Origin: Brevibacterium sp. W7.2
GTDB lineage: Bacteria > Actinomycetota > Actinomycetes > Actinomycetales > Brevibacteriaceae
DNA length: 64,000 bases
Assembly: GCF_018137945.1 (NCBI RefSeq)
Contig: NZ_CP073089.1
Span: 868,001-932,000, forward strand
Direction of reading: 5' to 3'
Of this stretch, positions 46,460 through 58,759 are shown one piece after another. How positions within the stretch are numbered: the stretch's first letter is position 1; every line of letters begins with the position of its first letter. The notes under the pieces are model-generated. The model saw only the letters and a program-made list of their open reading frames with translations, did no database searches and had not been told where the DNA came from. The position numbers were made by a program, and so were the translations under genes.

Positions 46460-47149
46460 ATGACTGAGCAGATGCGGCGACACGAGGCCGACCATGACGT
46501 GCCGTGGTCCCTGCCCATCGTCGTCCGCAAGTCGAAGACGGCGCTCGCCCGCCATATCGACGTCCTCGAGGCGACGGCGCGCGCCGTCGTCACGTTCCTC
46601 GACGACCCGCGCACCCAGCCGGAGGGGGAGTGGTTCGACGCCGTCGAGTACTGGCGCGACGGGGCGATCCGCAAGGTGGTGCGGCGCGGTGACGGCAAGA
46701 AGCTCGAGGACGCGCGTGCCCTCGGCAGCGTCGGCGTGAGCTTCGGCGGCACGGAGGAGTTCGCCCCGGCCGAGGCCTACGTCTTCCCTCCCGGTCCGGT
46801 CTCACCGCTGCCGCGTGAGCTGTCGAAGCTGCAGGTGGGGGACACGGAGTTCCCCGCTGATGGGGAGACGTCGATTCCCGCCGCCGAGGCGGTCGTCACC
46901 ATCGAACTCTCACCGCTGGTCACGCTGACGACGGGCAAGGCGGCAGCTCAGGTCGCCCACGGCGCTCAGCTCGCGTTCGAGCAGATGCCCGCCGAGGTGC
47001 GCGATCGTTGGCGCGACTCTGACTTCAGCCTGCGTGTGGTGACGCCGACGAAAGCCGAGTGGGCTGATGCAGACCGTCCGATCAGCGTCATCGACGCAGG
47101 ATTCACCGAGGTCGACGGACCGACGGAGACCGTGCGCGCGCACTGGTGA
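46460..47149 (+). CDS. PTH2-type peptidyl-tRNA hydrolase family protein
   Basis: 229 residues from ATG 46460, preceded by GGAGGAAGCGA; the frame extends upstream without coding character. The C-terminal third shows the PTH2 core: L-T-T-G-K-A-A-A-Q-V-A-H-G-A-Q-L-A and, further on, V-V-T-P-T-K-A-E-W and V-I-D-A-G-F-T-E-V. PTH2 enzymes release peptides from prematurely dropped peptidyl-tRNA; they are typical of archaea and eukaryotes but occur in actinobacteria. The first 120 residues are an added domain with an arginine-rich, aromatic character that I do not recognise. The gene appears to be monocistronic. Confidence 0.78.
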   Translation: MTEQMRRHEADHDVPWSLPIVVRKSKTALARHIDVLEATARAVVTFLDDPRTQPEGEWFDAVEYWRDGAIRKVVRRGDGKKLEDARALGSVGVSFGGTEEFAPAEAYVFPPGPVSPLPRELSKLQVGDTEFPADGETSIPAAEAVVTIELSPLVTLTTGKAAAQVAHGAQLAFEQMPAEVRDRWRDSDFSLRVVTPTKAEWADADRPISVIDAGFTEVDGPTETVRAHW

Positions 47150-54760: not shown

Positions 54761-56116
54761 GTGGATCCCACACCCTTCAGCCCGTACGCCCTGCTCATCG
54801 ACTCGGGCCTCCTCGGCGCGCTGCTCGTCGTCGGCACCATCCTGCGCGCCCGGATCCGCGTCCTGCAGACGATGATGGTCCCGGCCGGAGTGATCGCCGG
54901 ATTCCTCGGACTGCTCATGGGCCCCAACGGCCTCGGCTGGCTGCCGTTCTCCGACCAGCTGGGCACGTACTCCTCGCTGCTCATCGTCGTCGTCTTCGCG
55001 TGCCTGTCGCTGACGAGCGACTTCAACATCTTCAAGATCGGCCGTTCCGTCGCCGGATTCGCCAGCTACGGCGTCCTCATCTATGCGACCCAGACGGCGC
55101 TCGGCATGGGGCTCGTCCTCGTCCTCCTCGGCCCCCTCCTCGGCGCTCCCGACTCCGTCGGACTCCTCCTCTTCGCCGGGTGGGCCGGCGGGTTCGGCTC
55201 GGCCGCCGCGATCGGCACGGTCTTCACCGAGGCGGGTGACCCGGCGGTGCAGTCGCTGGCCTTCACCGCCGCGACCGTCGGCATGCTCACCGGCATCATC
55301 GGCGGCATCATCCAGGCGAAGATCGGCGCCGCGAAGGGCCATGCCAAAGAGTTCGTGGGACTGAGCGAGGTCCCCGCCGAACTGCGCACCGGCGTGCTCG
55401 ACCACGAGCAGGAGAAGCCGCCCATCGGCACCCACATGTTCTCCGGCAGCGCGATCGAATCCCTGACCTTCCAGGCCGGAATCGTCGCCACCGTCTCCGC
55501 TGCCGCGTACGGAGTCAACCTCATCCTCGGCGAGCTCATGCCGTCGGTGACGTTCCCGCTCTTCTCGATCGCGTTCATCGTCGGCCTCATCCTCCGCAGC
55601 ATCCTCGCGGGCACGAAGACGACGAAGTTCATCGACAAGGAGACGCAGAACTCGATCTCCGGTCTCGCCACCGACGTCCTCATCGTCTGCGGCATCGCCT
55701 CGGTCGTCCCGTCCTTCGTCGCCGACCAGTGGCTGTCGCTGCTCATCCTCTTCATCGTCGGACTCGCACTCTGCCTCTTCCTCGGCCTCTGGGTCGCCCC
55801 GCGGGTGATGAGCGACGGCTGGTTCGAACGCCAGCTCTTCACGTGGGGGTGGGCGACCGGCGCCGTGGCCACGGGCATCGCCTTGCTGCGCATCGTCGAT
55901 CCGAAGCTCAACTCCCGCACGCTCGAGGACTTCTCGCTCGCGTACCTCCCGGTCATCCCCGTCGAGGTCGCCGCCGTGACCTTCGCGCCGCTGCTCGTCC
56001 TCGGCGGGGCCGCGTGGGCGGTCGTCGGGATCTGGGGTGCGATCGCCGTCGGCGCGCTCGCGGTGGCGCTCTACATCATGGCCGCCAACCGCCGCGAGCT
56101 CGTGCCCGTCGGCTGA
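54761..56116 (+). CDS. GltS-type sodium/glutamate symporter
   Basis: 451 residues with a GTG start behind AAGGAGACCCCGTC. About eleven to twelve hydrophobic helices. The G-F-L-G-L-L-M-G run and the G-W-A-G-G-F-G-S-A-A-A-I-G-T loop resemble the re-entrant-loop repeats of the ESS (glutamate:sodium symporter) family. It would take up glutamate or a related dicarboxylate with sodium at the cytoplasmic membrane. It begins 77 bases after galE and is likely a separate unit; galE, gltS and the sarcosine-oxidase-like gene all read the same way. Confidence 0.85.
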   Translation: MDPTPFSPYALLIDSGLLGALLVVGTILRARIRVLQTMMVPAGVIAGFLGLLMGPNGLGWLPFSDQLGTYSSLLIVVVFACLSLTSDFNIFKIGRSVAGFASYGVLIYATQTALGMGLVLVLLGPLLGAPDSVGLLLFAGWAGGFGSAAAIGTVFTEAGDPAVQSLAFTAATVGMLTGIIGGIIQAKIGAAKGHAKEFVGLSEVPAELRTGVLDHEQEKPPIGTHMFSGSAIESLTFQAGIVATVSAAAYGVNLILGELMPSVTFPLFSIAFIVGLILRSILAGTKTTKFIDKETQNSISGLATDVLIVCGIASVVPSFVADQWLSLLILFIVGLALCLFLGLWVAPRVMSDGWFERQLFTWGWATGAVATGIALLRIVDPKLNSRTLEDFSLAYLPVIPVEVAAVTFAPLLVLGGAAWAVVGIWGAIAVGALAVALYIMAANRRELVPVG

Positions 56117-57421: not shown

Positions 57422-58309
57422 TCACACCTGCGTCGAGAGCCACGTGACCACCTCGGCGGCGAAGGCCTCCGGCGCCTCGAGGACAGCGAGATGTCCGACG
57501 GTCGGGAACCGTGTGACTTCGGGACCTCCGGGCAGCGCCGCGGCGAGTGCCTCGGCGTGGGCGACGGGGATCCACAGATCGGACTCACCCCACGCGATCC
57601 GCACGGGGCACCGCACCTTCGCGAGACGAGCGGCGATCGGGGCTGTGTGCTCGGGTCGCAGTGCCGCGATCTGCCGGTAGAACGCCGACTGACCGGCCGG
57701 GGTCGTCCACGGCCGCGCAAGCTCGGTGATCCACTCCCGTGACAGACCGGGGCCGCCCGCTCCTGCGATGTACTCGGTGACCAGGGCCCGATGCAGCGCC
57801 GGCGGGAGTGCCGCGAAGACCCCCTGACTCTCCGCGACGAGACGGAAGAACGGCGACCCCCACGGCGACAGGGTGACGATGTCGCTGAGATGGAGCGAGC
57901 CGAAGCGGCTGCCCTCGAACAGGTGTGCGCCGAGAGCTGTGGCGCCGCCGATGTCATGGGCGATGACATGGGGCGCGGCGAGGTCCCAGTGGCGCAGGAG
58001 GCGGGCGAACCGTGTGCGCTGAGCGACGAGATCGACCGGCGAGGCGGCATTCGCCTCGATCGAAGTGCCGTACCCGGGCATGTCCCACTGGTGCACGCGC
58101 CACCGGCTGCTCAGCCGGCGGGCCAGCGGCAGCCACATCCTCGACGACCAGGGCGTGCCGTGGCAGATGACGACATCGCCGAGGCTGTCGCCGCCGGTCG
58201 CATCGAGAACGTACGTCCCGATCCGTGCCGTCGACGAGGCGTCGGGACCGCAGGGAATCGGGACGGCGACGCATTCGGGTGCCGGGAACTCTGTGGGTGG
58301 GGTGCTCAT
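57422..58309 (-). CDS. alpha/beta-hydrolase, haloalkane dehalogenase/epoxide hydrolase type
   Basis: 295 residues. H-G-T-P-W-S-S-R-M-W is the oxyanion loop; A-H-D-I-G-G-A carries an Asp nucleophile, as in haloalkane dehalogenases and epoxide hydrolases, rather than a Ser; the acid is in G-E-S-D-L-W and the His in V-G-H-L-A. It should hydrolyse a carbon-halogen bond, an epoxide or a related ester in the cytoplasm. It is divergent from a MerR gene. Its promoter has an exact MerR-type layout, and the start codon lies 6 bases after the -10 box, so the mRNA is probably leaderless and under MerR control. Confidence 0.85.
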   Translation of the reverse strand: MSTPPTEFPAPECVAVPIPCGPDASSTARIGTYVLDATGGDSLGDVVICHGTPWSSRMWLPLARRLSSRWRVHQWDMPGYGTSIEANAASPVDLVAQRTRFARLLRHWDLAAPHVIAHDIGGATALGAHLFEGSRFGSLHLSDIVTLSPWGSPFFRLVAESQGVFAALPPALHRALVTEYIAGAGGPGLSREWITELARPWTTPAGQSAFYRQIAALRPEHTAPIAARLAKVRCPVRIAWGESDLWIPVAHAEALAAALPGGPEVTRFPTVGHLAVLEAPEAFAAEVVTWLSTQV

Positions 58310-58315
58310 GCGTCG

Positions 58316-58346
58316 ACGGTAGAACTTCAGGTCGACCTGAAGTCAA
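58316..58346 (-). promoter_or_regulatory. MerR-type promoter with 20-bp palindrome in a 19-bp spacer
   Basis: On the minus strand TTGACT (58346-58341) and TACCGT (58321-58316) are separated by 19 bases. Within and just around the spacer lies the perfect 20-bp palindrome ACTTCAGGTCGACCTGAAGT (58324-58343). The long spacer with a central dyad is the hallmark of promoters twisted into action by MerR activators. The hydrolase ATG (58309) begins 6 bases after the -10 box. Confidence 0.8.
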
Positions 58347-58363
58347 GGTGCGATGATGGGGAG

Positions 58364-58759
58364 ATGAGGATCGGAGAGGCCGCCGCGGATCTCGGCGTCG
58401 CCGCGCATGTGCTGCGGCATTGGGAGGAGTGCGGTGTCGTCGTGCCCGACCGCACACCCGCCGGACATCGCAGCTACGACGACGAGCACCTCAGCCGGTG
58501 TCGGATCGTCATCGCCTGCCAAGGGGTGGGGATGAGCCTCGCGGAGATCCGGCAGGTCCTCCACCGGAGCGCGGTGGGGAGGGCGGCGGTGATCACCGAA
58601 CGGATCGCTGCCATCCGTCGCCAGACGGTCGCCCTCGAGGCGGCCGAGCGCTTCCTCGTCCACGTCGCCGACTGTCGTCACGACCTCATGACCCGGTGCC
58701 CCGACTGCGCCGAGTACGCGGCGACACCGACACACCGGGGCACCGCCTCGGCGCGGTGA
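58364..58759 (+). CDS. MerR-family transcriptional regulator
   Basis: 131 residues from ATG 58364 (GATGGGGAG upstream). The N-terminal winged helix reads R-I-G-E-A-A-A-D-L-G-V-A-A-H-V-L-R-H-W-E-E-C-G-V-V-V-P-D-R-T-P-A-G-H-R-S-Y, a textbook MerR head, followed by the dimerisation helix (I-T-E-R-I-A-A-I-R-R-Q-T-V-A-L-E-A-A-E-R). The C-terminal part has a cysteine set, C-x7-C-x2-C in D-C-R-H-D-L-M-T-R-C-P-D-C, which might bind metal or sense thiol-reactive compounds. It most likely activates the divergent hydrolase gene through the palindrome between them. Confidence 0.9.
   Translation: MRIGEAAADLGVAAHVLRHWEECGVVVPDRTPAGHRSYDDEHLSRCRIVIACQGVGMSLAEIRQVLHRSAVGRAAVITERIAAIRRQTVALEAAERFLVHVADCRHDLMTRCPDCAEYAATPTHRGTASAR

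Follow-up and report, generated by a model that had tools for sequence, protein, structure and literature searches.

A conserved MerR-type promoter abutting the start codon of an alpha/beta hydrolase gene in Brevibacterium: a probable local switch with a leaderless target mRNA

Results

Organization of the locus

The window, that is, the whole 64,000-nucleotide stretch of Brevibacterium sp. W7.2 DNA that was analysed, contains two divergent genes separated by a gap of 54 bp. The gene on the minus strand (57422..58309) encodes an alpha/beta hydrolase of 295 aa matching Pfam Abhydrolase_1/_6, and the gene on the plus strand (58364..58759) encodes a 131-aa regulator of the MerR family (Pfam MerR_1, 2.5e-19, above the cut-off). 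The regulator locus has its closest relative, at 95% identity, in Brevibacterium sp. XM4083. A convergent gene for a DAO-type oxidoreductase directly abuts the 3′ end of the hydrolase gene, which is therefore probably transcribed alone. Elsewhere in the window, at 54761-56116 on the plus strand, an apparently multi-pass membrane protein of 451 aa without any Pfam or NCBIfam match at an E value of 0.001 may represent a divergent transporter.

The promoter of the hydrolase gene

On the minus strand, a -35 box TTGACT (58346-58341) is separated by 19 bp from a TANNNT-type -10 box, TACCGT (58321-58316), and the hydrolase ATG (58309-58307) lies 6 nt past the latter; these elements had been placed correctly by the initial annotation. 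The same annotation had described a perfect palindrome of 20 bp between the two boxes. The palindrome, ACTTCAGGTCGACCTGAAGT (58324-58343), is indeed perfect and of that length, but the spacer measures only 19 bp, so that the repeat runs three bases into the 3′ end of the -35 hexamer and ends two bases before the -10 box. Its conservation beside the regulator's relatives points to it as the operator bound by the MerR protein. Known MerR promoters have spacers of 19–20 bp with a palindrome inside the spacer (PMC9909328), and this arrangement of a palindrome within a long -35/-10 spacer is found here as well as in the relatives described below.

Taken alone, the palindrome is only mildly unusual: it is the sole perfect palindrome of at least 20 bp in the window, and shuffled windows contain about 0.45 each. 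The composite promoter of 31 bp, by contrast, is far outside chance, since it agrees with the family pattern at 31/31 positions, as compared with 24 for the runner-up site in the window. The only other palindrome of at least 18 bp in the window is a G+C-rich perfect 18-bp repeat, CGACGGCGCGCGCCGTCG, at 46572-46589. A search of the genome for further copies of ACTTCAGGTCGACCTGAAGT with up to two mismatches yielded none, and a wide regulon is therefore unlikely. A generic sigma-70 scan of the region found no consensus site; as the scan allows only spacers of 16–18 bp, it is expected to be blank at the hydrolase promoter.

The same genome carries a second promoter of the MerR type, TTGACTTCAATATATGTTGAAGTTCTAGCGT, at locus L007 (G000:C1 near 3271059; locus position 1760, plus strand). 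There, 7 nt separate the -10 box from an ATG that opens a frame of 86 codons, which ends early and resembles the start of a membrane transporter, and the divergent regulator looks SoxR-like.

Conservation of the promoter and exchange of its target

About 110 relatives of the regulator were gathered from the same genus, the same class and a public genome set, and 117–118 distinct promoter sites were counted when more distant regulators were included. The promoter accompanies almost all relatives that share the C-terminal motif, with a -35 box TTGACT, TTTACT or TTGCCT, a spacer of 19 bp and a TANNNT -10 box, kept as TAGCGT or TACCGT in the orthologous promoters. The same 31-bp promoter thus recurs beside the regulator's relatives across Actinomycetota. 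Two plasmid-borne relatives, with 40–48% identity, were the only ones of that kind found. A literature search returned nothing relevant on a described member of this regulator family.

The gene served by the promoter is not the same everywhere. It encodes an alpha/beta hydrolase in Brevibacterium, Aeromicrobium, one Streptomyces-like genome (L118) and one Mycobacterium (L067). Many Nocardia, plus a few other genomes, have at this place a protein of the metallo-beta-lactamase fold, for which the closest named models, at scores far below cut-off, are AHL lactonases. In Streptomyces, Actinomadura, Saccharopolyspora and others, the gene at this place encodes an NmrA-like NAD(P)H-binding protein. 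In the maximum-likelihood tree of the regulators, which rests on a short alignment and gives the hydrolase group weak support (77/12), each of these three target types requires one change; regulator clade thus corresponds to target family, each of the three target groups clustering together.

Regulators that are more distant but have operators of a similar kind lie opposite genes for FAD reductases and methyltransferases. Among these, a large uncharacterised set from Nocardioides-like and other genomes (L120-L144) combines distant MerR regulators with C-x7-C-P tails, the operator TTGACTTCATGTCGACATGAAGT, and thioredoxin-reductase-like FAD enzymes or methyltransferases as targets. Alpha/beta hydrolase homologues obtained by searching the class with the hydrolase as query, irrespective of any merR neighbour (L148-L174), had no such promoter within 1.5 kb on either side. 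In two Brevibacterium genomes (L013, G027; L022, G003), an intact promoter stands before a hydrolase frame that is broken or short.

Start of the hydrolase mRNA

The centre of the -10 box lies 9.5 bp upstream of the hydrolase ATG, which would put the transcription start at position 58309, the first base of the start codon. Upstream of this ATG, the frame is closed by a TGA located inside the -35 box, with no other start codon in between, and the next in-frame start is found 171 bases downstream of the ATG, within the catalytic domain and past the HGTPW motif. No Shine–Dalgarno (SD) sequence precedes the ATG at 58309.

The same geometry recurs in the relatives. In 81 of the 117 distinct sites, the start codon lies 5–8 nt past the -10 box and is nearly always an ATG at 6 or 7 nt; an earlier count, made over 118 sites, likewise gave 81 with an ATG at 6 or 7 nt. 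Because the targets are unrelated to one another, protein homology cannot explain this recurrent spacing. SD-like motifs were detected at 27 of the 36 sites with a far start, a class assigned by hand in which three sites are probably misplaced, versus 8 of the 81 with a close start (Fisher p ~4e-12, a value that overstates the difference and is only indicative, since the sequences are related and not independent). Moreover, the eight matches of the close-start set sit within the promoter or right against it. The far-start sites belong mostly to Nocardia and combine the same operator with leaders of ~55–60 nt, usually provided with an SD sequence; leaderlessness is therefore not essential to the system. 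In five of the Nocardia loci (L049, L050, L055, L059, L071), the 55–60 nt leader contains G+C-rich inverted repeats before the SD sequence, which might form a hairpin with a regulatory role.

The TANNNT boxes of M. tuberculosis have their centres 7–12 bp upstream of the start, and 26% of the genes with a primary transcription start site are leaderless (PMC3898074); for Actinobacteria, a proportion of over 20% leaderless genes has been given (PMC3160421). One more leaderless gene in such bacteria would be unsurprising in itself. With a -10 box that would place +1 on the start codon, no SD sequence, and both features conserved in relatives, the view that the hydrolase mRNA is leaderless and lacks a ribosome binding site, already expressed in the initial annotation, appears well supported. 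Within the library covered, a literature search found no report describing this class of MerR promoter as leaderless in Actinobacteria.

The opposite side of the gap may be organized in a similar manner. A probable -10 box for merR, GATGAT (NANNNT; 58352..58357, plus strand), lies 6 nt before the merR ATG, and an NANNNT element is found at this distance from the merR start in 22 of 22 hydrolase-type loci (GATGAT, CATCAT, CACTAT, GACAAT and others), and no SD sequence is conserved in front of merR. The merR mRNA is thus probably leaderless too, and the position of the operator suggests that MerR, bound just upstream of this -10 box, would repress its own gene.

The regulator and its sensor motif

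The AF2 model of the regulator (pLDDT 89) comprises a long helix (residues 70–103), a loop and a short helix (113–120), and matches the PDB folds of PbrR691, CadR, CueR and SoxR. An N-terminal winged helix-turn-helix followed by a long dimerization helix, as indicated by Pfam, AF2 and the PDB matches, identifies the protein as a member of the MerR family. Its tail had been described as C-x7-C-x2-C. Those cysteines are present, but the description falls short of the full motif, H100-x3-C104-x-H106-x5-C112-x2-C115 (58661..58708, plus strand), in which both histidines are as invariant as the cysteines and which occupies positions of the CueR and SoxR ligands. All five residues are invariant in 51 of 51 aligned relatives; in the same alignment L98 is likewise invariant and F97 nearly so.

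A gapless profile comparison superimposes C104, H106 and C112-P on C122, C124 and C130-P of SoxR. In alignments with CueR, C104 and C112 fall on C112 and C120, the two Cu(I) cysteines of that protein. Identification of the regulator as SoxR itself is ruled out by its NCBIfam score (34.9 bits against a cut-off of 116.9) and by its motif, since C-x-H-x5-C-x2-C, conserved in 51/51 relatives, stands in place of the four-cysteine [2Fe-2S] motif C-x2-C-x-C-x5-C. CueR is the best NCBIfam match, also with a score short of the cut-off (50.7 versus 147.4 bits). On this basis, we read the regulator as SoxR/CueR-like in its working and as belonging to an unnamed family. That it holds an Fe-S or metal centre, as the ligand-like residues would allow, we consider about evenly balanced.

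Properties of the hydrolase

The nucleophile of the hydrolase was confirmed to be an aspartate, D119, situated in the HDIGG motif (codon 57955-57953). Together with D244, H273 and the HGTP oxyanion motif, it is invariant in 40 homologues. Among solved chains, 5w15 comes closest to the AF2 model (pLDDT 90), with a Z of 38.7 and 40% identity over 270 residues; it is an alpha/beta hydrolase of Burkholderia ambifaria which shares the HGTP motif and an Asp at the nucleophile position, and whose record title states no function. The fold comparison did not separate dehalogenases, epoxide hydrolases and esterases.

Haloalkane dehalogenases combine the Asp nucleophile with an adjacent halide-stabilizing Trp and an Asn/Trp partner (PMC6920932). 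In the 40 homologues, I, F, Y or V follows the nucleophile, at no time Trp, and Thr stands in place of Asn in HGxP; the NCBIfam dehalogenase models match the hydrolase far below cut-off. The haloalkane dehalogenase reading offered in the initial annotation is not supported, the canonical halide residues being missing. Among the features of alpha/beta epoxide hydrolases, an Asp nucleophile, a His/Asp pair and an HGxP motif (PMC7538969) are present (D119, D244, H273, HGTP). Epoxide hydrolases also carry two ring-opening tyrosines in the cap; two tyrosines of the cap region here, Y180 and Y211, are invariant and would be candidates for that role. Epoxide hydrolase chemistry is possible.

Discussion

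The arrangement described above likely represents a local MerR switch with a single target, the mRNA of which would be leaderless. Control of the hydrolase gene by the MerR-type regulator had been suggested from the locus itself, and the conservation of the 31-bp promoter beside the regulator's relatives lends weight to it. We propose that a dimer of the regulator sits on the palindrome within the 19-bp-spaced promoter and, as long as the signal is absent, prevents its use by RNA polymerase. A change of state at the C/H site following the dimerization helix would cause the dimer to kink and untwist the spacer and thereby bring the two promoter boxes into alignment. Transcription would then begin at the A of the hydrolase start codon or one base from it, and the resulting mRNA would be translated through direct recognition of its 5′-terminal AUG. 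On the other side of the operator, the divergent merR gene, its own mRNA probably leaderless as well, would be subject to autorepression owing to the proximity of its -10 box.

As to the signal, the sensor is most likely of the SoxR/CueR type, with an Fe-S cluster or metal bound by C104, H106 and C112 plus either C115 or H100. It may react to redox-active or thiol-reactive small molecules, in which case the hydrolase could serve to detoxify such a compound. The initial annotation had gone further and seen in the regulator a sensor for an electrophile or a halogenated compound. That proposal was drawn from the hydrolase alone; because the same regulator family and operator govern unrelated enzymes elsewhere, the chemistry of the target is a weak guide to the inducer.

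Two other views of the sensor deserve consideration. The regulator might respond, in the manner of CueR, to Cu(I), Zn(II) or another metal ion, the hydrolase being an indirect part of the metal response. The place of CueR as best NCBIfam match, the coincidence of C104/C112 with the CueR ligands and the presence of PbrR691, CadR and CueR among the closest folds would all agree with this; however, the protein scores far too low against the CueR model to reach the cut-off, and no metal pump, chaperone or resistance enzyme occurs among the targets seen in the family, so we hold metal-ion sensing to be unlikely. Alternatively, and in keeping with the electrophile idea of the initial annotation, the invariant cysteines could form a plain thiol switch, operated by disulfide formation or by alkylation with electrophiles and devoid of metal, and the targets are plausibly detoxifying enzymes. 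Yet H100 and H106 are conserved as strictly as the cysteines, as would be expected of a site for a metal or cluster rather than of bare thiols, and a thiol switch likewise appears rather improbable to us.

The promoter itself may also be viewed differently. If the main transcription start were located elsewhere, for example inside merR, the hydrolase mRNA would possess a leader and the MerR-type promoter would be a minor one, and some relatives with the same operator do indeed have leaders. Against this stand the missing SD sequence before the ATG, the lack of another in-frame start ahead of the catalytic domain and the repetition of the 6–7 nt spacing across unrelated targets; the sigma-70 scan of the region, within its range of 16–18 bp spacers, also offered no other consensus site. 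We regard a distant start as very unlikely. Equally slight are the chances that the regulator represses rather than activates the hydrolase promoter. Some MerR-type regulators, such as CvkR (PMC9938897), are repressors, and a promoter with the boxes TTGACT and TACCGT could have basal activity, but the 19-bp spacer and the position of the palindrome are those of activated MerR promoters (PMC9909328, PMC5045206). A local, activated switch with a leaderless target mRNA remains our preferred reading. More tentatively, and with considerable reserve, the family could be viewed as an actinobacterial SoxR-like branch with a mixed Cys/His Fe-S or metal site (C-x-H-x5-C-x2-C), in which one operator controls a single, exchanged target and back-to-back leaderless mRNAs issue from ~54 bp.

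If the proposal is true, a single promoter of small size would let a MerR-type switch fix the 5′ end of an mRNA precisely at the start codon, and the locus would provide an inducible native promoter for studies of leaderless translation. Its relatives would supply a natural comparison, since one operator is followed by apparently leaderless targets in most loci and by SD-led ones in some Nocardia. From its invariant Cys/His tail, the sensor would seem to belong to a class intermediate between SoxR and CueR, and the way in which local switches of this kind evolve is illustrated by the exchange of targets.

The closest parallel is with SoxR and soxS. The MerR fold, the 19-bp spacer with its palindrome and, in gapless register, the pattern C-x1-C/H-x5-C-P are shared. 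The E. coli soxS promoter, its placement between soxR and soxS confirmed, agrees without gaps with the 31-bp promoter at 18/31 positions here and at 20/31 and 21/31 in two relatives, and its best match within the window is the hydrolase promoter. In Streptomyces coelicolor, the SoxR regulon comprises redox enzymes and an ABC transporter (PMC4146615). There are also differences. SoxR has C-x2-C-x-C-x5-C, whereas the present regulator has C-x-H-x5-C-x2-C plus an upstream His and no ligand at the position of SoxR C119. Between the aligned promoter and the start of soxS there are 48 bases in E. coli, in contrast to the leaderless arrangement predicted here; and, unlike SoxR, the present regulator has one local target. 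With CueR, CadR and PbrR, the regulator shares the fold and a short metal loop after the dimerization helix, as well as the C-x7-C spacing of CueR; it differs from them by the additional invariant residues H100, H106 and C115 and by a target unrelated to metal efflux. The start of the hydrolase gene resembles the leaderless genes described in actinobacteria (PMC3898074, PMC3160421), with a TANNNT box ~10 bp before the start and no SD sequence. Switches of this general kind are known; what sets this one apart is its sensor motif, together with a target that has been exchanged between clades and a promoter locked to the start codon.
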